A stretch of 49,445 bases of DNA from the NCBI RefSeq assembly GCF_014696105.1, contig NZ_JACJPO010000043.1:1-49445 (forward strand), given 5' to 3'. Origin of the DNA: Microcoleus sp. FACHB-1515 (GTDB taxonomy: Bacteria; Cyanobacteriota; Cyanobacteriia; Elainellales; Elainellaceae). The notes under the pieces were generated by a model, which saw only the letters and a list, made by a program, of their open reading frames with translations, was not told where the DNA came from and ran no database searches. A program made the position numbers and the translations under genes. How positions within the stretch are numbered: the stretch's first letter is position 1; the number at the start of each line of letters is the position of its first letter. Of the stretch, positions 2,385-19,684 are shown in pieces.

Positions 2385-3554
2385 TCAGGCGGAAGCTAGC
2401 GGCTCGATCGCCCGCAGCGGCAGGGTCACTGTCACAGTGGTGCCGACGCCCTCAGTGCTAGCGATCGAAATGCTGCCGTGATGAGTTTCTACACAGCGCT
2501 TGACAACGGCTAAACCCAAGCCCGTACCTTTAATGGAGCCGACATTATTGCATCGATAAAAGGTTTCAAACAGATGTGGCTGATTTGCGGCAGGAATGCC
2601 AATGCCTTGATCTTGAATTTGAAAGGTTGCCCAGCCGTCTTGACAGTCCAGCGTAAATTGAATTGTGCCGCCATTTGGCGAATATTTCATGGCGTTGCTA
2701 ATTAAATTGGTGAGAATTTGACGCAGCAGCGTCGGATCAATTTCGCCCACATTGGAGACACCGCTGCAAACCAATCGAAGCTGATGCCGATCGCTACTCA
2801 CCTGCAATACTTCAACCAGTTCCTGACAGAAACTGAAGAGATCCATTGCGATCGGTTCATATCGCGCTTTGCCCGATTCCAAGCTGCCAATGAGCAGCAC
2901 TTCATCAAGCAGATTCAACATGTGATCGATCGCGCCATCGATTTTTTCAAAGTAGCGGGCTTGCACGTCCGGTGATAGCGCGGGCTTGCCGGATGGCAGC
3001 GTTTGCCGCAGCAGTTCCGAGAAGCCGCGAATGCTTGTGAGCGGGCTGCGAAAATCATGCGAAATCATCGAGACAAATTCGGTTTTCAGGCGGTTTAATT
3101 CTTTTTCTTGCTCGAGTGCTTTCAGCGCTTCGGCCTTTGCCTGCTGAAGATCCATTTGCATTCGGCGCAAGGTGAGTTGATTTTCGACTCGCGCCAGCAC
3201 TTCTTCAACCTGAAACGGTTTGGTGATGTAGTCTACGCCGCCGACTTGAAAAGCGCGAACTTTGTCGATCGCTTCACTCAATGCGCTCAAAAAAATAACG
3301 GGAATGTCTTGAGTTTGTGGGTCAGCTTTGAGCTGTTCGCACACTTCATAGCCGCCCATTTTTGGCATACTAATATCGAGCAAAATCAAATCGGGATGCA
3401 CCGTTCGCACCGCCATCAGCGCCACTGCACCGCTAATCGCACTACGCACTTCATAGCCTTGCTGCGTCAACATACTTGAGAGCAGCCGCAAATTATTGGG
3501 CGTGTCATCCACAATCAAGATGTTGCCTTTGGTGAGGGCAGGAATTGAATTCAT
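2385..3554 (-). CDS. receiver-histidine kinase protein (REC-HisKA-HATPase)
   Basis: A 389-residue cytoplasmic protein with an N-terminal receiver domain, a short coiled coil and a complete kinase core. Receiver: acidic pair VDD at 15-17, phosphoacceptor Asp60 in LLDISMP, Lys112 in TKPF. Kinase: H-box MISHDFRSP with His166, N-box around Asn287, G1 DQGIGIP at 315-321 and G2 GTGLGL at 343-348, so it should be catalytically competent. The layout, receiver before kinase, suits a relay component that takes phosphate from an upstream hybrid kinase. Its ATG overlaps the stop of a decayed kinase tail (ATGA at 3551-3554), so it was probably once translated by coupling to a now-lost gene. It is the last gene of the minus-strand signalling block. 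The receiver is very close to that of the giant kinase upstream, including 38 identical bases. Confidence 0.93.
   Translation of the reverse strand: MNSIPALTKGNILIVDDTPNNLRLLSSMLTQQGYEVRSAISGAVALMAVRTVHPDLILLDISMPKMGGYEVCEQLKADPQTQDIPVIFLSALSEAIDKVRAFQVGGVDYITKPFQVEEVLARVENQLTLRRMQMDLQQAKAEALKALEQEKELNRLKTEFVSMISHDFRSPLTSIRGFSELLRQTLPSGKPALSPDVQARYFEKIDGAIDHMLNLLDEVLLIGSLESGKARYEPIAMDLFSFCQELVEVLQVSSDRHQLRLVCSGVSNVGEIDPTLLRQILTNLISNAMKYSPNGGTIQFTLDCQDGWATFQIQDQGIGIPAANQPHLFETFYRCNNVGSIKGTGLGLAVVKRCVETHHGSISIASTEGVGTTVTVTLPLRAIEPLASA
3220..3257. repeat. 38-bp exact repeat, copy 1 (receiver domains)
   Basis: The 38 bases starting TTGGTGATGTAGTCTACGCC match 10109-10146 exactly and in the same orientation. 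Both copies code for the VRAFQVGGVDYITK part of the receiver, one in the receiver-kinase protein and one in the giant kinase. With two mismatches the similarity extends to about 50 bases, which implies recent duplication or gene conversion. Confidence 0.9.
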
Positions 3555-3867: not shown

Positions 3868-6800
3868 TTAATTTGTTTCTGAACGAGTTGTTAGTTCAAC
3901 GATGTCATCAAAGCGAAAGTTGTAGGCAAGGTCGCGGAGGGCGTTGGCGAGTTCTACTTCGGCAGGCGGAATTTGCTCGATTAGTTGCAGCACTTGGCGA
4001 TCGCTACAGCCGCTGGCGGCACGATGCAGTCGGGCAATCCAGTCGGGCGGCATCACGGATAGCGCCGATCGATCGAGCTTCGGCGCGGTGTCCGTCTGCG
4101 CTTCTAGCTGCTCGTAGAGATAGCGGATGTCCAGATGCTCTGCTAGCTTCGCCAAAATTTCGTCGGGGTGAAACGGTTTTCGCAAAAAGTCGTCACAGCC
4201 AATTGCCAAAATCGCCGATCGATCTTCTTCAAAGGCGCTGCCCGTCACGGCAATGATGATGGGTGGTTTGTTCGTGCTGGCTTTGATCTGGCGCGTCGCC
4301 TCATAGCCATCCATCACGGGCATCCGCATATCCATTAAAATCAAGTGCGGCTGCCACTGTTGCCACAGCGCGATCGCCTCTTTGCCGTTTTCTGCCCGCT
4401 GCACTTCAAAGCCCAGCGGCGTCAGCAGCTTCAGCAGCAGTTGACTGTTTTCTGATTGGTCTTCGGCCACCAGCAAGCGGTAGGTGGGCTGGTCAGGCAT
4501 CAGTCCGACAATGCATTGCACTGAGGAAGTGGGTAAATCAAGAGCTTCCGCAAGATTTGCTGCGATCGTGGCGCGAAACATGCTGCCCCGCCCGACTTGA
4601 CTTTCGACCGTGATGTCGCCGTTCATCAACTGCACAAAGCGACGGCTGATCGCCAAGCCCAGCCCTGTGCCTTCGGGGGCCATCTGGCTCGATCGCGCCT
4701 GCACAAATGCACTAAAGAGCGTTTTCATTTCTTCGGGGGCAATGCCAACTCCAGTGTCTTCAACCTCAAAGTGAAGCATGAGGGATGAAGGATGAGTCAG
4801 GAAAGATCGATCCTCCTGCCTTGCTTCTGCCCAAGCCCGCAGCGTCACTTGTCCCGCATTTGTAAACTTGATCGCGTTGCCCAGCAGATTCAGCAGGACT
4901 TGGCGGAGTTTGCGCTCGTCGGTGTCGATGTAGCGAGGAAGATCCGGGGCGAGGTCAAACTGGAGGTGAAGCTGTTTGGTGATCGCTTTGAGGCGGAACA
5001 TGGCTTCAAGGCGATCGAGCAGCGCTTTGAGATCAAAGCATCCGGTATTGAGCTTGAGGCTTCCCGCTTCGATTTTGGACATTTCCAGCACGTCGTTAAT
5101 CAGTCCCAACAGATGCTGACCGCTGGAGTTGATGATTTCCAGGTTGGCGCGATTTTCGGCGCTGAGCAGGCGATCGCGGCTCATCAGTTGCGTGAAGCCC
5201 AAGATAGCGTTGAGTGGTGTGCGGAGTTCGTGGCTCATGTTGGCGAGAAATTCGCTTTTGGCGCGGTTGGCAGTTTCGGCAGCATCTTTGGCGCGTTCCA
5301 GTTCTGCGGACTGCTGCTGCGTTTGCGCGAGCAAGTCGGCCTGCTGAAGGGCGATGCCAAGCTGTGTGCTGATATGCGTGGCAAGGCTGACTTCGGATTC
5401 TTTCCAACTGCGCGGACTGGAATTTTGATAGCTCGCCAGCAAGCCCCACAGCTTTGCGCCTTGGAAGATCGGCACGGTCAGGTAGGCTCTGGTTTCAAAG
5501 CGCTCTAGCAGTTCGACATAGCACGGCGAAAATCCAGCTTTGTAGATGTCGTTCACGCAAAGATAGCTATCGCATTTGTAGCGTCCACCCTGATTTTCTT
5601 GGAGATAGGTGTCTTCGACAGAATCGACTGCGCCCCAAGCCCGCACAATGCAGCGATCGCTATCTGTCGCTCGCTTGGTTAGTGTCACATCTTCGATAGG
5701 CTGCTGTACCAGCGGCTCCCAACCTGCTGCAACAGATTCGGCCACAAAGCCGCCGCTCCAGTCCGGATTGAAGCGGTAAATAGCCACGCGATCGCAGCGC
5801 AACAACTGCCGCATTTCTTCGGTTGTGGCGCGAAAAATCTGGTCAAGTTCGAGCGTTTGGCGCATTCGTTCAACCACGCGCAAAGTGGCGCGTTCGCGTT
5901 CGGCACTTTCGCGCAGCGCATCTTCGGCCAGTTGGCGATCGAGTTCGGCTCCGGCTCTCGCGCCAAAAATCCGCAAAATCAAATGATGCGTGGAATCGTT
6001 GACCATCGGCTGAGTGTCCATGACGCTGAGGACGCCCAGAATTTGGCCGTTTGCATCGGTCAATGGCAAGCCCAAGTAGCTGACGACGCCGAGTTCGTGC
6101 AGCTCGGTGTCGGTGGGAAACAGCGTCGGAACTGCGTCTGGATAGTAGCAGACTTCGCCTTGCAGCACTTGCTCAGACGGTGTGCCGATCGCGCTGTAGT
6201 CGGTGTCGGGCGCGAAATCTTCGCCGCACCAAAAGGCCAGCGATCGCAACTGCGTCGATCCAGGTGTGATGCACTGGGCAATTTCGGCATAGCGCACTTG
6301 CAGCACTTCGGCCAAATAGCGCACTAGCGACTGCAAAAATGCGCTGCCCGTTTGGGCTGCTGTGCCTTCGACAATCAGGCGCAAAGCGGCTTCTTGCCGC
6401 TGCTGCAAGGCGGCACTCTGTTTGGCTGCGGTGATGTCGCGAGCGACAATGATCGCCGTTGTATCCGAGAGCGGCGAAATATTCGCAGACAGCCAGCGAT
6501 CGCGCCCGTCGATCGCCTGAGCATATTCCAGGTTGACAGTGGTGCGATCGTGCAGGCAAGCTTGAATGCCTTGATGCAGGCGATCGGCCATGTCGGGCGG
6601 CAGCACTTCATGCAGCGATCGACCCAAAATGTAGCCGGGCAGCTTGTAGGGCGGACTGGTCGGCGCAATTTTGAGGCAGCGCGTGGCGGCATCGCAGACC
6701 AGCACCACATCGGTCATGGCCGAGAATAACGCTCGCAGTTCGGCTTCGGCTCGCTTTTGAGCCAAAACGCTGCCAAGCTGAGCGGCGACTGCGGCCACAA

Positions 6801-9800
6801 GCTGAATCAGTCGTTCGTCCTGCTGGCGCGATTCCACCATAAAAAAGACCAAGACAGCAACGACGCTCGTGCCCTCAGAGGCGTTTCCTGTGACCGTAAT
6901 CGGCACGCCAAATCGCGCTTTCATGCCGTAGTTGCGGGCGGGCTGCGATCGCAATCGTTCATCGTGAACCGGATGCGGAACGCTATCGACGGGTTCGTCA
7001 ATGTCGGGAATCCATTCAGGCTGCTGCCGCTGCCAAACGCGCCCCGCAATTCCTTCCCCCAGTTCAAACGTGACACCTGCCAAGTTCCGGCGAAATTCAT
7101 TCACAGCCGCGATCGCGCCTGCCGTTGCGCCTGCCGAATTGCAGTGCCAAATCGGGCTGCACTCTAGCACGCTGCGATCGGCGGCGGGCAGCCAAACTTC
7201 GCCATAGATCCAGCCTGTGGTGTTGCAAAGGGCACGCAGCGCCACTTCCAAAGCCGAATCAAAATCTTGGGCAGCCGCGATCGCCTGCGTGATGCTCAGC
7301 AAAAGCTGAATTTCTTCTTCGGCTCGCTGGCGTTGCAGTTCAAGCTGGTGCGTGCTGATGAATTTGCTGATGCTTTGCGCCATCAATTCAATGATTTCGC
7401 GCTCGTGGCTGACAAAATCGGGGCGGGGCTGCTGCGAGAAAAAGCACAGCGTGCCATACACCTGGTCATCCACAAAAATCGGCGTGCCAATGTAAGACTC
7501 GATGCCCAAGGCGAGATACAGCGGATGATTGCTCATCGACTCGATCGCTCCCACGTGGCTGTAGCAAACGGTGTGGCGATCGTGCACCACCTGTGCACAA
7601 TAAACATCGTTGAGGCTGAAACGCTGCTCTGGTGCGAGCGACCGAATATCCGAGTGAATCGAGCGAATCGTGTAGCTGTCAGTTTCGACGCGCCCAACCG
7701 CTCCAGTGGAAAAGTCGAGAATTTTGCAGCCTGTTTGGATGTATTCCGCGCAGAGCGCTTCGATCGACTCGAACGGCGTCACGTTGAGGCGGTGCAGATG
7801 CTTCAGGTTCGTGCTGAATTCGGCCAGCGTTGCTGACGTTCGCAGCAAATCCACTTCGGCCTGTTTGCGATCGCTAATGTCGCCAGTCGAAACCACAAAC
7901 CGCACAGGCTGGCCGCATTCATCCCACTGCGCTTGTCCGCGCGAGACTACCCACTTGTAGCGATCGTCGCGGCAGCGCAGGCGATATTCGACGTGATATT
8001 GCGGCATTTGGCGCGACAGATACGCTTGGTTTGCCTGCATGACGCGATCGAAATCGTCGGGATGGATGCGGCTGCGCCATTCTTCATCTGAGTTGGAGAG
8101 TTCTTCTTCGCCATAGCCCAAAATTTCCTTCCATCGCTGCGAGAACAAAACGCGATCGTGCCGCAAGTCGATATCGGCAATGCCGTCGTTGTTGCCGCGA
8201 ATTGCCAGTTGCCAACGTTCTTCACTGGCTCGCAGTTCCGCTTCCGCAGATTTGCGCTCGGTGATATCGCGGGCAACCCAGATCGCCTGATCGTCGGAAA
8301 TCGGCGACGACTTGGCGCTAAACCAAAATTCGCGATCGCCGATCGTCACGCAGTATTCGCATTCTTGCGTGGTGCGTTCGGCCAGCGTTGTGTGAATGAT
8401 CGCCAGAAACCGATCGGCCTGTTCGAGCGGAAATACTTCATAAATGGTTTTGCCCAGCAGTTCATAGGCGGGCTGCACCAAGCGATCGGAATGTGCGGGC
8501 GTAACTTTGCAGTAGCGGCCTTCGCGATCGACCACCATCACCAAATCGGTCATGGCGGCAAACAACGCTCGCAGTTCGGCTTCAGACGCTTGCAGGGCAG
8601 CTTCGGCCAAGCGGCGGTCGCGAATTTCCTGCCGCATCAGTTGGTTGTGATAGTCCAAAGCTTCGCGCTGCTTGTGCGCCTGTTCCAGCAGTCGCGCCTG
8701 AGCGATCGCAATGCCCACCTGCGCGGCGATCGCTTCCAATAATTCAATTTCATCCACCGTCCAGTCGCGGCGAGCGGTTTGCTGAATTGAAAGGATTCCG
8801 TTTGGCTGACCTTGGTAGGACGTTCGCACGGCCAGCATTGACTGAATGCCCAACTGTTCGCAGATCGATCGCACTGGGGCAAGCAGCGGATCGGTAAACA
8901 CATCCGGCGAGGCAACAGCGCGATCGGACGCGAGGATTTGCTGCACATGCGGATTGCCGATTACAGGCACATCCAGATCTGGGTCGATCATCTCGCCCGT
9001 AATGCTGTAGGCGGCCACGACTGGAATGCGCGGCGGCACGCTTGCCACATAGGTTTTGATCATGCAGGCATCCGCTTCAAACGCTTTGCCTACCTGCACA
9101 ACAGTCGTTTCAAAAATCAGTTCGCTGTCGATGTGCGATCGAATCGCATCGGTGACTTGCTGCAAGATCAGCGTGTGGTGCAGTTGCCGCTCCAGCATGG
9201 CTTCGGCCTGCTTGCGCTCGGTGATGTCTCGCGACACGACAATCACTTCCGGTTCGCTGCCTAGCTCGACACTGCACACGACGCGGCAGGACATTTCGAT
9301 CCAGCGCGGCTGATCTTGCACCCGATAGCTTTGTGTGTGAACGCCTGCCATGCGTCCGGCCACATCCAGCATCCGCATCATTGCGCCTTGATCGTGCGGG
9401 TGGACAAATTCCAGCAGCGATCGACCCAGCAGTTGATCCGGGTCGTGACCGAGGAGCGATCGACAGGCAGGCGACGCATACAGAAATACGCCGTCTAGTG
9501 TGTGGCGCGAAATCATGTCGGTGGAATTTTCTGACATCAGGCGATAGCGGGCTTCACTTTCGCGGAGTGCCTGCTCGGTTTGCTTGCGCTCGGAAATATC
9601 TTTGGTCGATCCGACGATGCGAAGCGGTTCGCCCGCCTCGTTCCACTGCGCCTGACCGCGCCCTAGCACCCATTTGTATGACCCGTCATCGCAGCAGACG
9701 CGATATTCCATTTGATAGAACAGCGTTTGGCGATCGAGATACGCCTGCATTGCCGCCTGCACTGCTTCGCGATCGTCCGGATGAATGCGAGCGATCCAAG

Positions 9801-10455
9801 CCTCGCGCGTATCCAGAGTTTGCGTCAAATCGCAGCCGAGTATTTCCAGCATTCGCGGCGATCGAAACACCTGTCCGGTTTGAATATTCCAGTCCCAAAT
9901 GCCGTCATTGTTTCCCTGAAGCGCCAACTGCCAGCGCTCTTCGGTTTGGCGCAGCAGCAGTTCGGCAGTTTGGCGTTCGTCTTCGACGCGCAAGCGTTCG
10001 CGCACTTCCTGCTGGAGCTGCTGATTTTGCTCGAAAAGCTGTCGCTGAAGCCGCTGGAGGCGCAGTTGGTTTTCGACGCGAGCGATCACTTCGGCCATCT
10101 GAAACGGCTTGGTGATGTAGTCTACGCCGCCGACTTGAAAAGCGCGGACTTTGTGATTGGCTTCGCTGAGCGCACTCAGAAAAATTACCGGAATGTGACG
10201 GGTGCGATCGTCGGTTTTGAGCCTTTCGCACACCCTAAAGCCGTCCATTTGCGGCATCATCACATCTAGCAAAATCAAATCTGGCTGGCGCGACAGCACA
10301 GACTGCAAGGCAAGTTCGCCGCTGGGCGCAAACCGCACTTTGTAGCCGCGATCGATCAGCATTTCAGCCAAAAGCTGAAGGTTCGTGGGATTGTCGTCCA
10401 CCACCAAAATGCTTTCCAAGCGATCATCAGATTCACAGAAATCGGCAGCGTTCAT
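3868..10455 (-). CDS. giant multi-sensor hybrid histidine kinase (5 PAS, 5 GAF)
   Basis: A 2195-residue soluble hybrid kinase, very long even for cyanobacteria. Approximate order: receiver 1-125 (Asp64 in LLDVMMP, TKPF lysine), coiled coil to 165, PAS 170-295, PAS 295-420, GAF 425-590, PAS 620-735, PAS 735-860, GAF 875-1040, GAF 1050-1235, PAS 1240-1350, GAF 1355-1515, phytochrome-type GAF 1520-1700, HisKA with His1742 (MSHELRTPLN), HATPase to about 1960, receiver 1985-2110 (Asp2042 in LMDMRMP) and a helical tail 2140-2195. The last GAF has Cys1645 (AGFSPCYVELLERF) where canonical bilin-binding cysteines lie, so photosensing is possible but unproven. The start ATG overlaps the stop of the upstream hybrid kinase (ATGA, 10452-10455), so the two are translationally coupled. 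No membrane segments are seen. The stimuli cannot be read from sequence. Confidence 0.93.
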   Translation of the reverse strand: MNAADFCESDDRLESILVVDDNPTNLQLLAEMLIDRGYKVRFAPSGELALQSVLSRQPDLILLDVMMPQMDGFRVCERLKTDDRTRHIPVIFLSALSEANHKVRAFQVGGVDYITKPFQMAEVIARVENQLRLQRLQRQLFEQNQQLQQEVRERLRVEDERQTAELLLRQTEERWQLALQGNNDGIWDWNIQTGQVFRSPRMLEILGCDLTQTLDTREAWIARIHPDDREAVQAAMQAYLDRQTLFYQMEYRVCCDDGSYKWVLGRGQAQWNEAGEPLRIVGSTKDISERKQTEQALRESEARYRLMSENSTDMISRHTLDGVFLYASPACRSLLGHDPDQLLGRSLLEFVHPHDQGAMMRMLDVAGRMAGVHTQSYRVQDQPRWIEMSCRVVCSVELGSEPEVIVVSRDITERKQAEAMLERQLHHTLILQQVTDAIRSHIDSELIFETTVVQVGKAFEADACMIKTYVASVPPRIPVVAAYSITGEMIDPDLDVPVIGNPHVQQILASDRAVASPDVFTDPLLAPVRSICEQLGIQSMLAVRTSYQGQPNGILSIQQTARRDWTVDEIELLEAIAAQVGIAIAQARLLEQAHKQREALDYHNQLMRQEIRDRRLAEAALQASEAELRALFAAMTDLVMVVDREGRYCKVTPAHSDRLVQPAYELLGKTIYEVFPLEQADRFLAIIHTTLAERTTQECEYCVTIGDREFWFSAKSSPISDDQAIWVARDITERKSAEAELRASEERWQLAIRGNNDGIADIDLRHDRVLFSQRWKEILGYGEEELSNSDEEWRSRIHPDDFDRVMQANQAYLSRQMPQYHVEYRLRCRDDRYKWVVSRGQAQWDECGQPVRFVVSTGDISDRKQAEVDLLRTSATLAEFSTNLKHLHRLNVTPFESIEALCAEYIQTGCKILDFSTGAVGRVETDSYTIRSIHSDIRSLAPEQRFSLNDVYCAQVVHDRHTVCYSHVGAIESMSNHPLYLALGIESYIGTPIFVDDQVYGTLCFFSQQPRPDFVSHEREIIELMAQSISKFISTHQLELQRQRAEEEIQLLLSITQAIAAAQDFDSALEVALRALCNTTGWIYGEVWLPAADRSVLECSPIWHCNSAGATAGAIAAVNEFRRNLAGVTFELGEGIAGRVWQRQQPEWIPDIDEPVDSVPHPVHDERLRSQPARNYGMKARFGVPITVTGNASEGTSVVAVLVFFMVESRQQDERLIQLVAAVAAQLGSVLAQKRAEAELRALFSAMTDVVLVCDAATRCLKIAPTSPPYKLPGYILGRSLHEVLPPDMADRLHQGIQACLHDRTTVNLEYAQAIDGRDRWLSANISPLSDTTAIIVARDITAAKQSAALQQRQEAALRLIVEGTAAQTGSAFLQSLVRYLAEVLQVRYAEIAQCITPGSTQLRSLAFWCGEDFAPDTDYSAIGTPSEQVLQGEVCYYPDAVPTLFPTDTELHELGVVSYLGLPLTDANGQILGVLSVMDTQPMVNDSTHHLILRIFGARAGAELDRQLAEDALRESAERERATLRVVERMRQTLELDQIFRATTEEMRQLLRCDRVAIYRFNPDWSGGFVAESVAAGWEPLVQQPIEDVTLTKRATDSDRCIVRAWGAVDSVEDTYLQENQGGRYKCDSYLCVNDIYKAGFSPCYVELLERFETRAYLTVPIFQGAKLWGLLASYQNSSPRSWKESEVSLATHISTQLGIALQQADLLAQTQQQSAELERAKDAAETANRAKSEFLANMSHELRTPLNAILGFTQLMSRDRLLSAENRANLEIINSSGQHLLGLINDVLEMSKIEAGSLKLNTGCFDLKALLDRLEAMFRLKAITKQLHLQFDLAPDLPRYIDTDERKLRQVLLNLLGNAIKFTNAGQVTLRAWAEARQEDRSFLTHPSSLMLHFEVEDTGVGIAPEEMKTLFSAFVQARSSQMAPEGTGLGLAISRRFVQLMNGDITVESQVGRGSMFRATIAANLAEALDLPTSSVQCIVGLMPDQPTYRLLVAEDQSENSQLLLKLLTPLGFEVQRAENGKEAIALWQQWQPHLILMDMRMPVMDGYEATRQIKASTNKPPIIIAVTGSAFEEDRSAILAIGCDDFLRKPFHPDEILAKLAEHLDIRYLYEQLEAQTDTAPKLDRSALSVMPPDWIARLHRAASGCSDRQVLQLIEQIPPAEVELANALRDLAYNFRFDDIVELTTRSETN
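10109..10146. repeat. 38-bp exact repeat, copy 2 (receiver domains)
   Basis: Second copy of the 38-base direct repeat described at 3220-3257. The spacing is about 6.9 kb, spanning the giant kinase and the kinase remnant; recombination between the copies could delete both. Confidence 0.9.
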
Positions 10456-13400
10456 GTTGTCCGTTCGGGCGGTTGGGTAGGCTGAGTGAGCGTGAGGAGC
10501 TGCACGTACTGAAAATGATTGGCAAGGCGGGCGATCGCCTCCGCCAGAAACTCGTGCTGCGGGCGAATTTCCGCCACCAGCGACAGCATCCAGTCACGAT
10601 CGCCTTCCAGCGCCGCCTGATGAAGCCTAGCGATCCACGAGTTTGGCAGTAAAGCAAGCTGCTGGCGCAAGTGGGTCAGATCCGGTACTGCAACAGGTGC
10701 AGCGTCGTTTTGATCATTCGAGTCTAAATATTTTTTAATGCTGACGCGAACTTGAGTTTTGTGCAGTGGACGAACGAGAAAATCACTGCATCCTGCCGCC
10801 TGCGCGATCGATTGCGCTTCCGCATCGCCGATCGCAAAAATCACTGGAGGTGAATTGCTACCGAGGGCACAAATTTGGCGCAGCGCGTCGATTCCGGCGG
10901 GCAGTTGCAGATCGAGCCAGATGAAATGGGGCTGCCAGGTTTTCCACAGCGCCACAATTTCCTCACCGCTGCTTACCTCGCGAATGCGGTAGCCCAGCGA
11001 TCGCAGCAGCGCCAACAGCAGCGGTCGATCGCGATCGTCCAATCCGACTAAGCAGCGGAACGCCTCAGACGGCAGCGGCGGAGTCGTGATTCCGACCGGA
11101 ATTGCAAATTCAAACACGCTGCCTTGTCCCACTTCGCTTTGCACCGTAATGTTGCCGCCCATCAACTGCACAAACCCTTGACTAATCGACAGTCCCAGCC
11201 CTGTGCCTTCTGCTGTCTGTCGTCCACTTGCCGTTTGTACAAACACTTCAAAGATGGTGTCAAGTCGATCGCGATCGATGCCAATGCCCGTGTCAACAAC
11301 AGAGAAATGCAAAGTGGTGGGTGCCGAGTGTTGGCCGTTGACGACCTTCACCGTGACGCTGCCGGACTGCGTGAATTTAATTGCGTTGCCGATCAGGTTT
11401 ATCAGCACTTGGCGAAGTTTGAGTTCGTCAGCGCAAATCCACTGCGGCAGCGCAGGAGCGCGATCGATTTTCAGGGCGATCGATCGGTCTTGTGCTTTGA
11501 GCTGAAACATTTCGAGCAGTTCTTGCAGCAAACGGTGCAGATCAAAGCAGCTTTCGTCCAGCGTTAAGCGACCCGCTTCGATTTTGGACGAGTCGAGGAT
11601 GTCGTTAATCAGTTGCAGCAGATGTTCGCCGCTGCGCTGAATAATATCGACATATTCGCGATGGTCGGCAGGCAACTGGTGACTGAGCGCCATGAGCTGC
11701 GTGAAGCCCAAAATCGCGTTGAGTGGCGATCGCAGTTCGTGGCTCATGTGGGCAAGAAATTGACTTTTGGCGCGGCTGGCAGCTTCGGCAGCTTCTTTAG
11801 CGCGTTCCAGTTCCAGTGCGATTTGCTTGCGCTCTTGAGCGATGCGGCGACGTTCGGCTTCGGCGCGTTTGCGATCGCTGATGTCTTTGATCACTGCGAG
11901 GATGCGCGGTTCGCCTTCGATTTCGATCAGTTCGGCAGAGACCAAAGCAGTTTTGGCTTCTCCGGTTTTGGTGCGAAACGCGACTTCGACATTGTGCAAA
12001 GTGCGCCGCTGACGCAGAATTTTTCCAAAGCGGGTAAAGCCTTCGGGCGTCAAGGGAAATTGCAGATCGAACGGCGTGCGGCCAATAATTTCAGCGCGAT
12101 CGTAGCCGCTGATGCGACAAAAACTAGTGTTCACATCGAGATAGCGTCCGCTGCTGACAGTGGTGATCGCGATCGCATCAGGACTGGCGCGAAACACTTT
12201 TGTAAACTTCGCCTCCGACGCTTGCAGCGCTTCGTTGACTCGCTCAAACGATTGCCCCATCTGCCTTGCCATCTGATTAAACGATTGCGCCATCACATCC
12301 AGTTCGGTGACAGGTAAATCAACAGGGACACGCTGATTGAATTCGCCCGCTGCGATCGATCGGCTCGCTCGACTCATCCGCAGCAGCGGCTCAGCGATCC
12401 AGCGCGATGTACGCAAACCTAAAGCGATCGCCGCCAGCAGCGTCGCCAAACACAGCAGCAGCGTGTTTCGGTTAGACGCCGCGATTTGGCGAGTAAAGTC
12501 AGACTTGGGCACAACGACGGCGACCAGCCAGTTGATTCCCAAGTCGCGACCGAACGGCATCACCGTTAGAAATTCGGGTGTGCCGTTGCGGTTAAACATC
12601 ATTTGATGAGGGCGATCGATTTGGTGCAAATCGCCGAATTTTTCGCTCAAAAAGCGGGTTGCTGCTTGAATTTGTGGGTTTTTGCTGTCCAAGGCCGATC
12701 GCCGCTGCTGCTCGCCATCTACCAGGTCAAACGGCGGCTCGTCTGCCGAAGACGCAATCAGCAAACCGTCCTGCTCGATGATAAAGGTCGCGCCCGTCTG
12801 CCCAATCTTCAAACTGCCCAAAAATTCACTCAGGCTCGACAGCTTCACTTCAGCATTAACCACGCCCAACAGCCCTTCATCTTGAAAGGTTGCGTCCGCT
12901 GAAATCACCAGCCGCGCCGGATTCAACGTTAGGTAAGCACCTTGCCAGAAGGGGCGATCGGCAATTACCGCGTTGCGATACCAAGAACGCTGGCGATGGT
13001 CATAGTCGGAATCGAGCGTTGAAGAAAGAATGCGGCCTTGCGCGTCAATTTTGGAGTCAATCAGTCCCCCTTGCGATCGATTCCAGCGCGACAGCACCAT
13101 CGAGCCATCTTCGGCGTACAGAATGCCGATGTAGTCCGGTTTCTCAGTAGCGATCGTGATGCCGCTGAGCGTGGGAAACTGCTGCAACTGCCGCATCAAA
13201 TAGCCTTGCAGCCCGCTTAAATTTTGGGCATCGATTAAGCCAGATTCCAGCGCATCCACGTTTACACGATTAACAATCAGCGGCGTTTCGAGGTGATCGG
13301 TGAGCTTTTGCTCGATGCGAGCCGCAATCTCCGTCCGAATTTCTTCGGCAAGTTCGGCCACCACCATTTCTCCGTTGCGGTAGGAAAAATAACCGACTAA

Positions 13401-13499
13401 GCTTACCGCTCCCAAAGTCAGCAGCACAAAAGGAACGACCAGCACCAGACGGAGCGGCCAGCGGCGCGGCTTCATTTTGGAGCGGAATGGCTTCTTCAT
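10452..13499 (-). CDS. membrane hybrid histidine kinase (Cache-HAMP-PAS-HisKA-HATPase-REC)
   Basis: About 1015 residues. A basic N-terminus leads into a membrane helix (about 16-38), a long periplasmic Cache-type sensor region to about 340, a second membrane helix (LLLCLATLLAAIALGL), a HAMP linker, one PAS domain (ASPDAIAIT onward), HisKA with His587 (MSHELRSPLN), HATPase with DTGIGID and GTGLGLS, and a C-terminal receiver with Asp863 (WLDLQLP). The receiver is atypical: the usual KPF lysine motif reads VRPL, and its surroundings are weakly conserved. It ends in the same helical tail as the giant kinase (LPNSWIARLHQAA). It heads the kinase run and overlaps the next gene by ATGA. I took ATG 13499; a TTG two codons earlier (13505) is possible. 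It probably binds a small extracytoplasmic ligand, by family analogy only. Confidence 0.92.
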   Translation of the reverse strand: MKKPFRSKMKPRRWPLRLVLVVPFVLLTLGAVSLVGYFSYRNGEMVVAELAEEIRTEIAARIEQKLTDHLETPLIVNRVNVDALESGLIDAQNLSGLQGYLMRQLQQFPTLSGITIATEKPDYIGILYAEDGSMVLSRWNRSQGGLIDSKIDAQGRILSSTLDSDYDHRQRSWYRNAVIADRPFWQGAYLTLNPARLVISADATFQDEGLLGVVNAEVKLSSLSEFLGSLKIGQTGATFIIEQDGLLIASSADEPPFDLVDGEQQRRSALDSKNPQIQAATRFLSEKFGDLHQIDRPHQMMFNRNGTPEFLTVMPFGRDLGINWLVAVVVPKSDFTRQIAASNRNTLLLCLATLLAAIALGLRTSRWIAEPLLRMSRASRSIAAGEFNQRVPVDLPVTELDVMAQSFNQMARQMGQSFERVNEALQASEAKFTKVFRASPDAIAITTVSSGRYLDVNTSFCRISGYDRAEIIGRTPFDLQFPLTPEGFTRFGKILRQRRTLHNVEVAFRTKTGEAKTALVSAELIEIEGEPRILAVIKDISDRKRAEAERRRIAQERKQIALELERAKEAAEAASRAKSQFLAHMSHELRSPLNAILGFTQLMALSHQLPADHREYVDIIQRSGEHLLQLINDILDSSKIEAGRLTLDESCFDLHRLLQELLEMFQLKAQDRSIALKIDRAPALPQWICADELKLRQVLINLIGNAIKFTQSGSVTVKVVNGQHSAPTTLHFSVVDTGIGIDRDRLDTIFEVFVQTASGRQTAEGTGLGLSISQGFVQLMGGNITVQSEVGQGSVFEFAIPVGITTPPLPSEAFRCLVGLDDRDRPLLLALLRSLGYRIREVSSGEEIVALWKTWQPHFIWLDLQLPAGIDALRQICALGSNSPPVIFAIGDAEAQSIAQAAGCSDFLVRPLHKTQVRVSIKKYLDSNDQNDAAPVAVPDLTHLRQQLALLPNSWIARLHQAALEGDRDWMLSLVAEIRPQHEFLAEAIARLANHFQYVQLLTLTQPTQPPERTT

Positions 13500-14045
13500 C
13501 GGCAACTGACTGGCATGGGCTAGCAGGCTGAAAGGTTGATCCGAGATGTAGGAGGTGGGCGATCGAGTTCAAATCGGCGTATTTCTTACGATAAGCTGGC
13601 AAAACTGATTAGTGCTTGATTTGACGATCGTAAATAGAGACGGGTAAATCCTCGTGAAAATCCTGAATCAAAAATCGAAGATTCGCAATCAGCCTTGCTG
13701 AGAACTGTCTTGCTGGGAACTGGATGGAACAGAAGCTGAACCGATCGCGACTTTGCGATCGCCCCCTTCGGGCATCAAGCGATCGGCAAGATGTTCGATC
13801 GACTGCTGCTTTCTACGATCGTTGACTGCAACCTTGGCGGTGGCTGTTCTGCAACTGGCTGAATAAGGACTTACGCACTTAGGAACCAGGAAATCAATTT
13901 CCTAGCTCAAAGCGCCAGTCCCCAAAACGGACTGGCGATCCCGTAGGGCTGCCAGAACAAACTCGCGAGGATCAACCCATTTGAATGGGTTTGCGCTTTC
14001 AGCCGAAACTTGACACGGCCTCTGCCGCTGTCCTATGAGTGTGAA
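13500..14045. other. intergenic region with hairpin cluster
   Basis: About 545 bases between the DHp-EAL gene and the hybrid kinase run, both on the minus strand. No coding frame is convincing. The part near 14000 holds three hairpins, listed separately as a repeat. The part near 13500-13860 has many CGATCG cores and presumably carries the promoter of the kinase run, which I could not locate. Confidence 0.45.
13888..13991. repeat. cluster of three perfect hairpins, possible degenerate mobile-element remnant
   Basis: Three inverted repeats follow one another: AGGAAAT-CA-ATTTCCT at 13888-13903, CGCCAGTCC with a 7-base loop and GGACTGGCG at 13913-13937, and AACCCATT-TG-AATGGGTT at 13974-13991. 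All arms pair perfectly. The preceding words ACTTACGCAC and TAGGAACCAGG and the following GCGCTTTCAGCCG resemble dispersed non-coding elements I associate with cyanobacterial genomes, perhaps insertion-sequence ends. No transposase fragment is visible beside them. A terminator role for the upstream DHp-EAL gene is also possible. Confidence 0.5.
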
Positions 14046-15089
14046 TTAGCAGAGCAGTTGAACGACGGCTTCGCTATTGAGCGGTTTGGCAAAAAAATAA
14101 CCTTGCCCTCGATAGCAGCCTAGTGATTGCAGTTTTAACACTTGTTCTTGCGTTTCGACACCCTCGGCAATTACATCGATCCCCAAGCTGCGCGCTAAAT
14201 TTGCGATCGCCCGCACGAGGTATTCGCCGCGCTCAGAGTCAAGCTGCTGCACAAACGATCGATCGATCTTCAGCACATCGAGCGGCAAATCATACAGGCG
14301 ATTGAGCGAAGAATACCCCGTCCCAAAATCGTCAATGTAAAGCTGGACGCCCAGCGATCGCAATTGATGCAACACGTTTTTGCCCACTTCGGCATTGTTC
14401 ATCGCCGCCGTCTCGGTAATTTCCAGCTTCAAAAATTCTGCGGCCAGCCCGGTTTCTTGCAAGACCTGATCGATCTGTGCAGCCAAGTCAATGCAGGTCA
14501 ACTGACGACTCGACAAATTGACGCTCACCGAAAGATTGCCAAATCGATCGGGAAATTGCTGCTGCCACTGATAAAGCTGGTGACAAGCTTCGCGCAACAC
14601 CCACAGGCCAATCTCAAGAATCGAACCGCTTGCTTCGGCGATGCTGATAAATTCAGTTGGTGCCAGCAATCCCAAGGTTGGATGCTGCCAGCGCAATAGC
14701 GCCTCGAAGCCGTTGATTTGACAGGTTGCAAGCGACACCAAGGGCTGGTAGTGCAGTCGCAATTCACCATGTGCAACCGCCGATCGCAGTTCGGTTTCCA
14801 GCCGCAGCCGCGCCAATTCTTCGGGCGAAACAAGATTGAAAATTGTGTTTGGCTCTTGCTCGATCGTGGTCGTTAGCCGCATCAGCCGCTCAACGTTGCT
14901 TGCTGCGATCGAAACCATCCGTTGTCCTTGCTCGGTTAAAAGTCCCAGCCTGCCACTGTCGAGCAGATCAAGTGCACCTTGAATCGCCGTCAGCGGCGTT
15001 CGCAGTTCGTGACTAATATCAAGTGCCGTTTCTTGTGCAGCGGAATCAAAATCCAAGTGGTTCTGTGTGTAGGGTTTGCTCAAAGTCAT
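14046..15089 (-). CDS. DHp (HisKA)-EAL fusion, predicted c-di-GMP phosphodiesterase
   Basis: About 347 residues. Residues 20-75 form a histidine-kinase phosphoacceptor hairpin with an intact H-box (DISHELRTPL, His27), but no HATPase domain follows. Instead an EAL domain fills the rest. Every catalytic landmark is present: EALLRW (Glu129), the asparagine of SVNLS, EITET, IDDFGTGYSSL, LKIDRSF, VIAEGVET and the closing GYFFAKPL. Active hydrolysis of c-di-GMP to pGpG is therefore expected, and there is no GGDEF domain. The hairpin resembles that of the neighbouring 707-aa kinase (SG+LG..LT..GQ pattern). The ATG at 15089 was chosen because codons upstream to an ATG at 15233 look non-coding; that longer form would add a hydrophobic N-terminus. 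Control by phosphorylation in trans is inference. Confidence 0.88.
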   Translation of the reverse strand: MTLSKPYTQNHLDFDSAAQETALDISHELRTPLTAIQGALDLLDSGRLGLLTEQGQRMVSIAASNVERLMRLTTTIEQEPNTIFNLVSPEELARLRLETELRSAVAHGELRLHYQPLVSLATCQINGFEALLRWQHPTLGLLAPTEFISIAEASGSILEIGLWVLREACHQLYQWQQQFPDRFGNLSVSVNLSSRQLTCIDLAAQIDQVLQETGLAAEFLKLEITETAAMNNAEVGKNVLHQLRSLGVQLYIDDFGTGYSSLNRLYDLPLDVLKIDRSFVQQLDSERGEYLVRAIANLARSLGIDVIAEGVETQEQVLKLQSLGCYRGQGYFFAKPLNSEAVVQLLC

Positions 15090-15811
15090 GAAAATTGTTG
15101 TAAATAGATGCAGTACCTCGGAGAACAACCTGGATACTGAATTTATCAGGCAGGAAACAGCAACCATCAAAAAAACGAATCGCGTAACACAAAACGGTTC
15201 GCGAAAAGACGAATTGATTAACACGAAGAACATTCAAAATTCTCTCATGTCATCTTCGACTTAAGTATCAGTGTAAGCATGAGTTTTTGTGGCGATCGCC
15301 GCGATCGCCGCTGATGAATTTGCGGAGAAAACTGGCTTCAAGCGCGATCGCATCTGGTGAACTCCTGTGGTTAAGCAAGTTGAAATTATAGTCTAACTAA
15401 AAAACATCTTGCTAGCTCTGTATCGATAGTAGTATTCACATGAATGCCGAGATATTGAGGTACGGCACGCCTTGTCCGACAAGAAGTTTGACCGCAATTC
15501 GATCGAGCATTGCTAGTAATGTCTGCATTTCATACAAGTGCTCAATTGAAAAATCAATTCAGCAAATGCTGGCTTTTCTAGAAATTGCAAAAACAGAAGA
15601 AATAACAAGGTTGCAGTGCGTCGTCGAGGAATATTCGATCGAGCAGATGTTGTGCATTTCCGTTTCGGCTGAATGCAGAAAATGATTTAACCATGCTTCA
15701 AATGATGCAAGCAGCCTTCAAAGTAACGCAGCAAGCTAAATCGATCGCATTGACTTTGAGCAGTCAGAATAATGATTTGGAAATTCTACATCAGCCCTGG
15801 TGAACTGCGGC
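15090..15811. other. long intergenic region, no supported gene
   Basis: About 720 bases, AT-richer than the genes on either side. Two HIP1 octamers occur in tandem near 15291-15309 (GCGATCGCCGCGATCGCCGC). A frame at 15440-15685 has no family resemblance and no convincing ribosome site, so I do not call it. The stretch probably carries the promoter of the DHp-EAL gene and the end of the receiver transcript. Confidence 0.4.
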
Positions 15812-16189
15812 TTAGTTCCAGCCAAGCACTTGCAGAATCTGCTCAGCGAGTTTGGCAGGCTTAAACGGTTTAGCAATCATTGCCTTGACGCCCAAATCGG
15901 CAAAGCGACGCTGATCAGACACTTGCACTTTTGCCGTGAGCAAAATGACTGGAATGTGCTGGGTGGCCGGATTTGCCTGAAGCTGCTGGAACGTGGCAAC
16001 GCCGTCCATGTCGGGCATCATGACATCGAGCAAGATGGCGTCTGGCTGCTCGCTTTCGGCTAGGGTTAATCCTTCTCGGCTCGATCGCGCCACGCAGACA
16101 TCTAGCCCTGCCATGATTTCCAAGCTCATCTGTGCAATTTCACGAATGTCATCTTCATCGTCGATTACTAAAACGCGCTTAGCTGCCAC
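15812..16189 (-). CDS. single-domain response regulator (CheY/Rcp-like)
   Basis: A 125-residue stand-alone receiver. The acidic cluster VIDDEDD (Asp10, Asp11), phosphoacceptor Asp55 in LLDVMMPDMDG, the threonine of ILLTAK and the lysine of AKPFKP are all intact, and there is no output domain. GTG at 16189 is the likely start: GGAGG ends 6 bases upstream. A TTG at 16195 is too close to that site. The gene overlaps the last 11 bases of the upstream sensor kinase, a tight arrangement that argues for a cognate kinase-receiver pair. Without an output domain it probably acts by protein contact or as a relay intermediate. Confidence 0.93.
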   Translation of the reverse strand: MAAKRVLVIDDEDDIREIAQMSLEIMAGLDVCVARSSREGLTLAESEQPDAILLDVMMPDMDGVATFQQLQANPATQHIPVILLTAKVQVSDQRRFADLGVKAMIAKPFKPAKLAEQILQVLGWN

Positions 16190-18302
16190 GAGCAACCTCC
16201 AGTAAATTTTTCACCCCGCGATCGCCTTTAGTGTTCCCCGGTTGTGTGGGAAAAACCGTCGCGGCGATCGGGAGCGCCAGATAAAAGCTGCTGCCCTGCC
16301 CGACCTTGCTTTCCACCCAAAGGTGGCCTTGATGCCGATGGGCAATGCTGCGACATAACGTTAAACCGAGTCCGGCTCCGCTCTGAGGGCGAGCGTCCGA
16401 AGCGTCAGCCTGCCCAAAGCGCTGAAAAATTGCTTCTAGTCGATCGGCGGGAATGCCCAGTCCTTCGTCTTTGACCTGAATCACGACATAAGACTCGGCG
16501 GACGCGGGGATCGGGAAGGTGGCAGGAAGGGCAAGGCTCGATCGTTGTTCTACGGTTAGCCAGATTGTATCGCCCGCTGCTGAAAATTTAATGGCATTGT
16601 TCAGCAGATTCGTCAAAACTTGAGTAATGCGATTAGAATCTGCAAAGATTTCGATCGGTTGAAGGTGCAGTCGCAAATTGATGCTGGCTTGGGCGGCGGC
16701 GGGCTGCACGGCGATCGCCGCCTGCTCGATCAACTCTACAATCTGGCAGGGCTGCGACAAAAGCTCAACCTGCCCCGCCGCAAACTGAGCCAGATCAAAA
16801 ATATTGTTTGTTACCTGCACTAAGCGATCGCTGTTGCGAGCCGCCAGTTTCAGCAATTGCTGGCCGCGATCGGTCAATTCGCCCAGCTTGCCGCTGAGCA
16901 GCAGTTCAACTGATCCGTGCAGCGCGGCAATTGGCGTACGCAATTCATGGCTGATGGTCGAGATCAATTCATCTTTCAGACGATCGAGGCCAGGGTGAGG
17001 AGTGATGTCTTTGACGAGGATGGCAACGCTGCTGACTCGCCGCTGAACGTGAATGAGTGAAAGCACCATCATCACCTCGATCGATTCACCCGTCTTGCGC
17101 TGATGCTGAACAGGATGGCGAGCGATCGATCCGGCCAGCAGCGACCCAGCCAGCGCAGCATTGAGCCAGAGTCGATCGTCGCTGGAGCGAATCAGCTTGG
17201 CGATCGGCTGCCCGATCGCTTCCGCTGCGCTGTAGCCGTAGATGCGTTCTGCCCCGCCGTTCCAGCTCAAGATGCGACCTTCAAGATCAATGTTGATGAT
17301 GCCGTCTTCGGTGGCTGCGACGATCGCGCTAAGCAACTGCAAAGCTAGTTCGCTCTGCTGCCGCTTTAGCAGTTGCCCTAGCCTTTGCGTCAGTAAAGAT
17401 GCGAGCTTGAGAAAATCGGGTTGGGGTGGCTGCGGCTTGCGGCTATACACAATCAGAGCGCCGAGATGACCAAAGGCAGTGGAACCGTCGCTGCTGACGC
17501 AAATGGGCAGGCTCCAAACGGTTTGCAAGCCTTGAGCATCGGCGGCAGCAAGGCGACCTTCGATCGCGTCTAGCAAACGAAGCGCAGTTGTGTTGCTGGG
17601 CAAAACGGCTTCAGCCAGTGAGCAGTGCAGCTCAAAGTTTTGAATGGGGGCTGTATGCCACTGGGCGATCGGCTGAAGCGCTTGTGCCGTTGCCACCCAA
17701 ATTTCGCCTACATCCCAGCCAAAGGCTTGACAAAGCGGCGGCAGCAAGGCGACTGCATCCATTACGGTCGTGGCGTTCGCCACCTTGAAGCGAAAGGCTG
17801 CTAGCGCTTGCGATCGCGTCAGTCCTCGATCGAGCTGCTGCACAATTTGCTGTTGCTGACAGTAAAGCTGGAAGCGCTGATCGGTGAGTTGCTGCCGCAA
17901 TGCAACAAGCTGTTGCTGTGTACAGGGTTGGTTTGACTTTTTGCCGAATGGAATTGAGCAAAGCTGAGCAAGCTTGGCAGGTAGCCGTGCTAGCTCGTGA
18001 AGTTCTAGATAATCGTCGGCTCCCGCCTTGATCAGCGTGACCGCCTCAGTTGCGCTGAGATAATTGCCAATCACCAAAAACGGCAGATCGCTCAAGACAC
18101 GAACTCGATGTAGAGCCAGCAGCGGGTCGATCGCGCCATCGATCGCCGTGACGATCACTGCATCCCAAGCGGGCGACAGGGCTGCTTCTAAATCGGCCAA
18201 CCTGGTGACTGGATGACAGATTGCACCATCAACTAAAAGTGTCTGAGCAATCAAAGCATGAGTTGCCTCGGTTGCAGCACATAAAATTTGCAAAGGAGCC
18301 AT
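16179..18302 (-). CDS. sensor histidine kinase with pseudo-receiver and PAS domain
   Basis: A 707-residue soluble kinase. Residues 1-120 have a receiver-like pattern but lack the acidic pair, the phosphoacceptor Asp (AVIVTAIDG has Thr at that site) and the lysine, so this is a pseudo-receiver. Next come a coiled coil rich in Gln, a GAF-like region with TVWSLPICVSSDG, a PAS domain (ATEDGIINIDLEGRILSWN), HisKA with His452 (ISHELRTPIAAL) and HATPase with DEGLGIP and GAGLGLTL. The enzyme should autophosphorylate. It is the first gene of a pair with the receiver that overlaps its end. The DHp region resembles that of the DHp-EAL protein two genes downstream, suggesting shared origin or shared partners. 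Confidence 0.9.
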   Translation of the reverse strand: MAPLQILCAATEATHALIAQTLLVDGAICHPVTRLADLEAALSPAWDAVIVTAIDGAIDPLLALHRVRVLSDLPFLVIGNYLSATEAVTLIKAGADDYLELHELARLPAKLAQLCSIPFGKKSNQPCTQQQLVALRQQLTDQRFQLYCQQQQIVQQLDRGLTRSQALAAFRFKVANATTVMDAVALLPPLCQAFGWDVGEIWVATAQALQPIAQWHTAPIQNFELHCSLAEAVLPSNTTALRLLDAIEGRLAAADAQGLQTVWSLPICVSSDGSTAFGHLGALIVYSRKPQPPQPDFLKLASLLTQRLGQLLKRQQSELALQLLSAIVAATEDGIINIDLEGRILSWNGGAERIYGYSAAEAIGQPIAKLIRSSDDRLWLNAALAGSLLAGSIARHPVQHQRKTGESIEVMMVLSLIHVQRRVSSVAILVKDITPHPGLDRLKDELISTISHELRTPIAALHGSVELLLSGKLGELTDRGQQLLKLAARNSDRLVQVTNNIFDLAQFAAGQVELLSQPCQIVELIEQAAIAVQPAAAQASINLRLHLQPIEIFADSNRITQVLTNLLNNAIKFSAAGDTIWLTVEQRSSLALPATFPIPASAESYVVIQVKDEGLGIPADRLEAIFQRFGQADASDARPQSGAGLGLTLCRSIAHRHQGHLWVESKVGQGSSFYLALPIAATVFPTQPGNTKGDRGVKNLLEVARGS

Positions 18303-18703
18303 GCTATTAGCGACGCGCAGTCGCTCGCGTCAATAGAACGATGGGGGAAAAGCGATCATTGCTAAAAAAGCCGAACTGTGCGATCGCAAGAAGCCGAGAG
18401 AGCGAGTCGATCGCAACTTATCAACTGCAAATTAAAAGTGCAGTGTCAGGTCGAGCAGTCTGAAGCAGTGGGGCGATTTCGAGCGTGAGCTTAATGATTA
18501 TTTTAGAAAAGAACTGTGGAAAAGTTGGGGAAAAAACGACCAGTAAAATGCAAAAAGGCGTATCGCTCTAAAGTTCCCCGACTTTTCCACCTTTAAGTTT
18601 TAGTTTATGATTAACCCCTGTTTGATAGATCGAGACAGAGTTGAACTGCTTTTTGGCAACTCCAGTTTGACTCCAATGAAATCTAGCAGCGGTGCATCAG
18701 GCT
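18303..18703. other. divergent promoter region
   Basis: About 400 bases between the divergently transcribed sensor kinase and the conserved gene at 18704. No small gene is supported. The notable structure is the long inverted repeat at 18516-18590, listed separately. Promoters for both directions are expected here, but I cannot assign -10 or -35 elements with confidence. Confidence 0.45.
18516..18590. repeat. 17-bp inverted repeat in a divergent promoter region
   Basis: GTGGAAAAGTTGGGGAA at 18516-18532 is matched by TTCCCCGACTTTTCCAC at 18574-18590, its reverse complement with one mismatch, around a 41-base centre. It lies between two divergent genes, so it could be a pair of regulator sites in opposite orientation or an RNA or DNA cruciform. 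There is no T-run after the second arm, so a simple terminator is unlikely. Confidence 0.7.
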
Positions 18704-19684
18704 ATGTCATTTAGCAAGTTCAACGATTTAGACAACGCTGAATCGTCTCTCTCTTCAGCACCTGGGCAACATCCCGCGACCCTCGCTGACCTCGATCGCC
18801 TCATCAGCGAGCGGTTTTGCGCCAGTGCGCTCGATCAAATCATGCTCTATCTGGCATTCAGCGCATTACGCACGAGCGGTCATCGGCACGGGGCATTTCT
18901 CGATGCGGCAGCAACAGCGGCCAAGTGCGCGATCTACACGACCTACATGAAAGAAGGTCAAAATCTGCGGCTGACCGGACAGTTGCATCACATCGAACCC
19001 AAGCGCGTCAAGGTGATTGTCGAAGAAGTCCGGCAGGCGCTCACGGAAGGCAAAATGCTGAAAACGCTCGGTTCCAATGAGCCGCGCTATCTGATTCAGC
19101 TTCCGTTTGTGTGGCTAGAGCAGTTTCCCTGGCAGCCCGGAGAATCGCGCATTGCCGGATCAAGCTTGCTGCCTGCTGAAAAGCGGCAGGTGGAATCACT
19201 TCTGCCCGCTGATTTGCCGAATGCACGGCTGATCAACGCGCTGGAGTTTATGGATCTGATCGAGTTTTTGCATTTGCGATCGCAAGCCGACTGGCCGATC
19301 GAGCAGCAATTGCCCCTGAGCGAAGCAATGGCCGAACACATCCGCCGCCGCTTAATTTATTCCGGAACGGTGACGCGCATTGATGCACCCTGGGGAACGC
19401 CGTTCTATGCCTTGACACGCTTGTCCTATTCGCCTGCGGATGACGATGCTCGCGCTTATGCCGCGATCGAAGACACTGCCGATTTCTACGCGCTGATGCG
19501 CCGCTGGGCAAACCGAGAACCCAAGGTTTTACGCATGGTCGAAGAACTCAACATTCCTGCTGATCAAATTGAAATCGCGCTGGCGGAACTCGATCGACTG
19601 GTCAAAGATTGGGCAGACCGCTACCACCAAGACGACGGCGAACCGATCGTGCTGCACATGGCAATCGGTCAGCACGAAGCTTGA
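18704..19684 (+). CDS. conserved protein of unknown function
   Basis: A 326-residue protein that I cannot assign. It is soluble, mixed alpha/beta by composition, with no signal or membrane segment. Recognisable blocks are a helical N-terminal part with ALRTSGHRHGAFLDAAATAA, a basic HHIEPKRVKVIVEEVRQAL, and a C-terminal segment EPKVLRMVEELNIPADQIE that could be a winged-helix-like unit. I have the impression of similar proteins being widespread in cyanobacteria, possibly among those labelled HetZ-related, but I cannot confirm it. ATG 18704 was chosen over 18692 because it starts the charged soluble region; neither has a strong ribosome site. It stands alone, convergent with the kinase-WD40 gene. 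Confidence 0.75.
   Translation: MSFSKFNDLDNAESSLSSAPGQHPATLADLDRLISERFCASALDQIMLYLAFSALRTSGHRHGAFLDAAATAAKCAIYTTYMKEGQNLRLTGQLHHIEPKRVKVIVEEVRQALTEGKMLKTLGSNEPRYLIQLPFVWLEQFPWQPGESRIAGSSLLPAEKRQVESLLPADLPNARLINALEFMDLIEFLHLRSQADWPIEQQLPLSEAMAEHIRRRLIYSGTVTRIDAPWGTPFYALTRLSYSPADDDARAYAAIEDTADFYALMRRWANREPKVLRMVEELNIPADQIEIALAELDRLVKDWADRYHQDDGEPIVLHMAIGQHEA

Follow-up and report, generated by a model that had tools for sequence, protein, structure and literature searches.

A phosphoacceptor hairpin joined to an EAL phosphodiesterase domain, encoded beside a single-domain response regulator in Microcoleus sp. FACHB-1515

Gene cluster and the DHp-EAL protein

The window, that is, the whole stretch of DNA analysed here, comprises 49,445 nucleotides of Microcoleus sp. 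FACHB-1515 (RefSeq assembly GCF_014696105.1, contig NZ_JACJPO010000043.1). On its minus strand lies a gene of 347 aa (14046..15089), delimited by ORF, Pfam and alignment, in which a phosphoacceptor hairpin (DHp, Pfam HisKA) is followed directly by an EAL domain. The same-strand order is a PAS-HisKA-HATPase histidine kinase of 707 aa (16179..18302), a single-domain (CheY-like) response regulator of 127 aa (15812..16195; Pfam, synteny and residues), the DHp-EAL gene, a Cache-HAMP-PAS hybrid histidine kinase of 1017 aa (10452..13505), a multi-PAS/GAF hybrid histidine kinase of 2195 aa (3868..10455) and a receiver-HisKA-HATPase kinase of 389 aa (2385..3554; Pfam and synteny). A preliminary description made from the letters alone had placed the DHp-EAL gene correctly and had noted several kinases in the block, which are these four, but it missed the response regulator, which we propose as the partner of DHp-EAL. 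The regulator ORF, listed with a TTG start, shares its first 17 bases with the end of the 707-aa kinase ORF, and 722 bases separate it from the DHp-EAL start. Genes 64-70% identical to the 389-aa kinase occur in all six group A loci (L101-L106). The 707-aa kinase begins with some 110 residues that by eye resemble a worn-down receiver; Pfam finds none in this protein, and a receiver is recognisable in its relatives in L102-L104 and L106. Divergent beside the kinase-regulator-DHp-EAL cluster is a HetR gene (Peptidase_S48 and HetR_C; 18692-19684, plus strand), and a gene 64-68% identical to it has the same neighbourhood in four of the six group A loci (L101-L104).

The longest ORF over the DHp-EAL gene starts at 15233 and would encode 395 aa; the ATG at 15089 agrees with the start sites of the nearest relatives. 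The HisKA hairpin (PF00512) covers residues 22-76 (14862..15026) and scores 44.9 bits against a curated cut-off of 26.9. Its H-box reads DISHELRTP, with His27 (codon 15009..15011) at the phosphoacceptor position by sequence and conservation. Pfam detected no HATPase domain in the window protein, which is thus not a histidine kinase, and none in eight relatives scanned (seven DHp-EAL and one DHp-GGDEF-EAL), so the observation of a histidine-bearing hairpin without an ATPase of its own is confirmed. The EAL domain (residues 100-336, 14082..14792; Pfam, alignment and Foldseek) scores 245 bits. Residues E129, N191, E223, D253, D254, K274, E309, E312 and Q329, which we take to be the catalytic set, are invariant in 13 aligned sequences including that of the window, to which the relatives are 42-68% identical. 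With fold and conserved residues present, the domain is a predicted c-di-GMP phosphodiesterase, in line with the earlier remark that it looks intact.

An AlphaFold2 model of the protein (mean pLDDT 89.8) has helices at residues 14-47 and 53-78, followed by the EAL fold; a two-helix hairpin bearing the conserved histidine is thus predicted. The hairpin was modelled without alignment depth, as the addition of short kinase rows lost invariant columns and these rows were omitted, and its pLDDT is about 73-83 over residues 21-80 in ten-residue blocks. The closest solved fold is the BifA EAL domain (8arv, TMt 0.94; Foldseek). No PDB structure with hairpin and EAL was found by sequence (47 matches, the earliest starting at residue 84), and the best 50 Foldseek rows name EAL proteins only, some of them (Bd1971, MorA, RocR) spanning about 300 aligned columns.

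Distribution of the family and the hairpin histidine

We searched 388 cyanobacterial genomes with a profile, scoring five candidates per genome, and the counts are therefore lower bounds. Hairpin and EAL were covered together at no fewer than 61 places, in at least 53 of the 388 genomes and in ten family codes. Scores fall from 412.8 to 395.9 bits, and the matches listed below this gap begin at model position 55 or later, mostly at 92-98. A fragment from G025 that starts at model position 69 scored above the gap and was left out of the count. The profile-search places, window included, and one protein from Argonema antarcticum give 62 DHp-EAL members. DHp-EAL is present in two of the 20 genomes reached via named loci, Leptolyngbyaceae M33_DOE_097, whose copy has the same contig and place as that of G183, and Argonema antarcticum. 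An earlier contig scan used patterns mostly within EAL and hence retained EAL-dominated relatives; it is uninformative on distribution. Among the matches listed from 299 Pseudomonadota genomes, at about six candidates scored per genome, there was no stand-alone DHp-EAL. A 348-aa frame of G407 from this phylum was rejected as a candidate: by profiles it carries GGDEF-EAL and not HisKA, and it overlaps a 986-aa GGDEF frame.

A quick tree was built without bootstrap from the EAL columns alone, with the split gene of L199 omitted. On it the EAL domains of all 62 members form one side of a branch (SH-aLRT 97) against 26 other EAL and four DHp-GGDEF-EAL rows. The latter proteins, which have Tyr at the histidine place, are encoded in L112 (6939-8600), L113 (9659-11377), L196 (7018-8697) and L198 (754-2415), and their EAL domains branch apart from those of DHp-EAL; a further such gene is split over two frames in L199 (4577-6297). 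The GGDEF motif of the L112 protein reads REDEF by eye, which makes EAL its likely output. That a sequencing or assembly error joined two genes, as the preliminary description had considered, is vanishingly improbable, and artefact or pseudogene is ruled out by the 13-sequence alignment, this distribution and the single EAL clade. The one other genome of this genus (G001) has the gene in two pieces, at the ends of contigs C290 and C657 (L116 and L117), and the hairpin piece has two in-frame TGA; this copy may be damaged or misassembled and is silent on the fusion question. Genome G104 has a tandem DHp-EAL pair (L185, 7845-8942 and 8978-10066) whose members are placed apart on the EAL tree, and a third copy on the same contig (L150, 8865-10016, listed with the tandem pair).

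The expectation that homologues keep the histidine holds for most of the family. The residue at this place is His in 55 of 61 readable members, Tyr in four, Asp in one and Gln in one, the remaining member (L152) being unreadable there. It fails for about four lineages, in which the histidine has been lost to Tyr, Tyr, Asp and Gln; three Tyr members (L114, L159, L191) form one clade, and the other losses are in L192, L187 and L195. The EAL tree has five state changes at this place, including the separate Tyr clade of DHp-GGDEF-EAL. Among positions 15-100, His27 is the most informative column (4.61 bits, 61 members). The 55 His-bearing members all have E28 and P32; 54 of them have R30 and 50 have G38. 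In the ten His-less proteins (six DHp-EAL and four DHp-GGDEF-EAL), counted without correction for kinship, R30, L40 and L42 are kept throughout, P32 in six and G38 in three. PF00512 falls below its cut-off on L187, L192 and L195, has no match on L114 and is above it on L112. We read the residue frequencies as a sign that selection acts on histidine chemistry in the proteins that have the histidine, and in every one of them, with or without it, on a surface for docking or dimerisation. Position 34 is Thr in only 43 of 65 hairpin proteins, a finding that counts against docking of a regulator.

Regulators and kinases near DHp-EAL genes

A same-strand single-domain regulator lies within 2.5 kb upstream of 32 of the 55 DHp-EAL genes with room for one, compared with 1 of 27 other EAL genes (Fisher p 7e-7). 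With one member per 70% identity group the linkage is 17/37 against 1/27 (p 1.6e-4), and all three testable DHp-GGDEF-EAL loci have the regulator within the same distance. Within 700 bases upstream, it is found for 24/59 DHp-EAL, 3/3 DHp-GGDEF-EAL and 1/27 control genes. The 27 controls consist of 19 cyanobacterial EAL genes, one from a Pseudomonas region and seven from regions fetched for other loci, of which five neighbour a DHp-EAL gene (L164, L171, L177, L183, L195); the sole control with a regulator, L199, is itself the split DHp-GGDEF-EAL gene. When either strand is counted within 4 kb, a single-domain regulator is present for 35/51 DHp-EAL genes and 4/22 controls, and any receiver or ATPase gene for 49/51 and 12/22, five controls being DHp-EAL neighbours. 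Such linkage does not amount to interaction, and EAL genes in these genomes often have two-component genes nearby. The 34 upstream regulators all have D12, D57, T87 and K109, and 33 have D13.

Several observations bear on the partner model from the other side. The regulator is missing within 2.5 kb upstream of 23/55 DHp-EAL genes, which counts against it; no two-component gene lies in the 16-kb region of L187, nor was one detected in L111, L181, L186 and L193, whose regions are shorter. The His-less L195 still has a regulator, as do the three testable Tyr-bearing DHp-GGDEF-EAL genes, and phosphotransfer therefore cannot be required everywhere. Over 34 pairs, regulator distances correlate with hairpin distances at 0.86 and with EAL distances at 0.90. 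The partial correlation of regulator and hairpin is 0.15 (Mantel p 0.036), and that of regulator and EAL given the hairpin is 0.56; hairpin-specific coevolution was accordingly rejected as support, the signal beyond ancestry being weak.

The preliminary description had likened the hairpin to that of the 707-aa kinase, and genome-wide this kinase is indeed its second nearest relative (53.8 bits). The nearest is a receiver-kinase encoded on contig C64, which scores 60 bits and has TSGA as docking residues, and the third reaches 26.4 bits. Positions +7, +8, +11 and +12 from the histidine are important for kinase specificity, and we use them as docking positions. They read AAGS in the 707-aa kinase, the likely kinase of the regulator by Pfam and hairpin similarity, and NAGF in both hybrid kinases. 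The window hairpin resembles the 707-aa class and not the hybrid kinases nearby. The 62 DHp-EAL proteins have mainly ASGA (18), TSGA (14), TSGV (6), TAGA (5) and TVGA (4). Among 100 kinases in the fetched loci, 54 have N-x-G-F, and in 17 the four positions end in G followed by a small residue. A matching class was defined, after DHp-EAL had been seen, by a small residue at +12 preceded by G or A at +11; whole-hairpin BLAST is independent of the class so drawn, and in it all 66 hairpin proteins (62 DHp-EAL and four DHp-GGDEF-EAL) had their best match among the 100 kinase hairpins in one with TSGA (36), TSGS (25) or TSAS (5), residues of the class to which the 707-aa kinase belongs. A kinase with matching residues was present in 7/61 loci (the window, L102, L103, L104, L106, L192 and L194), each searched over about 16 kb or up to the contig ends.

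Nine relatives of the regulator have no adjoining DHp-EAL gene, and five of them have a kinase of the class upstream, within 60 bases or overlapping in L197, L204 and L207 and at 0.7-0.8 kb in L206 and L208, the last with docking residues TSAS. The other four (L201, L202, L203, L205) have none, which counts against the model. In the genome of L197, a DHp-GGDEF-EAL gene lies about 11 kb from the regulator relative. From the best matches of the hairpin and the kinases upstream of regulators, the hairpin probably derives from a kinase class that often serves single-domain regulators of this kind.

Within 6 kb, a non-kinase protein with at least two receivers accompanies 29/47 DHp-EAL genes and 0/10 controls. 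Five proteins of this kind were scanned, three encoded in DHp-EAL loci and two near regulators that have no DHp-EAL gene beside them; all five have receiver, Trans_reg_C and Hpt domains, and two also have GGDEF. Proteins of the order receiver, winged-helix, Hpt, receiver lie beside the regulator in L106 (3642-5174), L107 (3331-5340), L160 (4849-6891), L204 (2930-4801) and L197 (11770-14568); profiles found none in the window. Such neighbours fit a phosphorelay.

Proposed mechanism, alternatives and known systems

We tentatively propose that DHp-EAL is a c-di-GMP phosphodiesterase that uses a kinase hairpin as a reversed input, reading the single-domain regulator encoded with it. The hairpin would dimerise the enzyme, and the regulator would dock on a surface that the hairpin shares with its parent kinase class. 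Phosphate would reach the regulator from a kinase of the 707-aa class; in the simplest form of the proposal it would be the phosphorylated regulator that docks on the hairpin and, where the histidine is kept, hands the phosphate over. Depending on its state, the four-helix bundle would then change how the two EAL domains pair or open and might thereby speed up or slow down c-di-GMP hydrolysis. A more specific form is possible, although we hold it with more doubt: the relay would end on phospho-histidine rather than phospho-aspartate, passing from kinase to single-domain regulator to a hairpin histidine that directly gates EAL. The hairpin would then be a transferable module for reading the regulator, one that probably became attached to EAL enzymes on at least two occasions, and the Tyr forms would work by docking only.

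The preliminary description had offered phosphorylation in trans or a dimerisation device, an interpretation that is partly supported: it omits the likeliest partner, the regulator. The alternative that survives best, though we consider it rather unlikely, is docking without phosphotransfer, in which binding of the phosphorylated regulator alone switches EAL and the histidine is a leftover or aids binding or dephosphorylation. It draws on the replacement of His by Tyr, Asp or Gln in about four DHp-EAL lineages and by Tyr in DHp-GGDEF-EAL, in some of them with the regulator alongside, and on the pseudokinase DivL of Caulobacter. According to the accessible text of PMC4211667, DivL has Tyr at the histidine place, binds DivK~P via its docking surface, with binding unreduced in Y550H, and senses DivK~P in this way without kinase and phosphatase activity. 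The same text gives its docking residues as R at +3, T at +7, G at +11, Y at +12 and L at +15, with R553 and T557 required for DivK~P binding; R30 and T34 of DHp-EAL correspond to these two, and the DHp-GGDEF-EAL proteins and two DHp-EAL lineages likewise have Tyr at the histidine place. DivL, as described there, has the kinase CckA as its target and still possesses PAS and ATPase-like domains, whereas the output of DHp-EAL is EAL and most members bear the histidine; the window protein keeps His27 and is thus not a DivL-type pseudokinase, in which the docking surface is kept and the histidine replaced. Against docking only, the histidine is the most informative hairpin column even among proteins 42-68% identical to that of the window, and P32 varies only where the histidine is lost, neither of which docking alone would explain.

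EAL enzymes act as dimers, and DHp bundles dimerise. The hairpin might accordingly be a mere dimerisation scaffold for EAL, with the signal coming from elsewhere; the PaMorA phosphodiesterase, listed among the fold matches, is dimeric, and the histidine is dispensable in some lineages. We nevertheless judge this reading improbable, given the strong conservation of His27, E28, R30, P32 and the docking positions and the linkage to one kind of regulator. Phosphorylation by a paralogous kinase, whose ATPase domain would act in trans or within a heterodimer, would agree with the closeness of the hairpin to the 707-aa kinase class, with which DHp-EAL has the hairpin subfamily and docking residues in common although those kinases have HATPase, and with E28 next to the histidine in all 55 His-bearing members. 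An acidic residue beside the histidine also occurs in pure phosphotransferases. A matching kinase is found at 7 of 61 loci only, compared with a regulator at 32 of 55, and this reading seems to us distinctly improbable.

Hairpin proteins such as Spo0B and ChpT retain a degenerate ATPase domain. They are degenerated kinases serving as phosphotransferases, and in Sphingomonas melonis SdrG~P donates its phosphate to the conserved histidine of the kinase-derived PhyT, as far as the accessible text of PMC5898713 describes them. PhyT is thus a kinase-derived hairpin protein that reads a single-domain regulator through a conserved histidine, and DHp-EAL may be similar by analogy. PhyT differs in retaining a degenerate ATPase domain and relaying phosphate to a further regulator, according to the same portion of that paper. 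In DHp-EAL the EAL domain follows the hairpin directly, for which reason we do not class it with the Spo0B/ChpT/PhyT type, though it may work alike. Two-component input to c-di-GMP enzymes is otherwise represented by RocR, which is among both the PDB sequence and fold matches to DHp-EAL, and in Anabaena by CdgS with CdgK (PMC9927289) and by Alr2306, a REC-GGDEF-EAL protein (PMC13075795); in the accessible accounts these enzymes carry their own receiver, whereas DHp-EAL has a histidine-side hairpin and the receiver is separate.

Among the titles and abstract openings listed from the open-access literature, none describes a hairpin-EAL protein that lacks an ATPase domain, nor is one mentioned in the accessible text of PMC8461337, PMC8846402 and PMC1183210; the architecture may be listed in domain databases. 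If the proposed reading of the regulator by the hairpin is true, the flow of two-component signals to c-di-GMP enzymes can run in reverse, with the histidine side on the enzyme, and one regulator could serve several outputs because it is a free diffusible protein. With natural variants from His to Tyr, Gln and Asp in one family, experiments could tell docking from phosphotransfer, a distinction that matters for pseudokinases such as DivL.

In the genus coded g95, the gene after DHp-EAL, at most about 110 bases on, encodes a GGDEF protein in nine loci (L160-L163, L167, L169, L170, L174, L176) and a GGDEF-EAL protein in four (L164, L171, L177, L183). In L160 the following gene is FHA-GGDEF and the two ORFs overlap. 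Hydrolase and cyclase are likely encoded in one operon in this genus.
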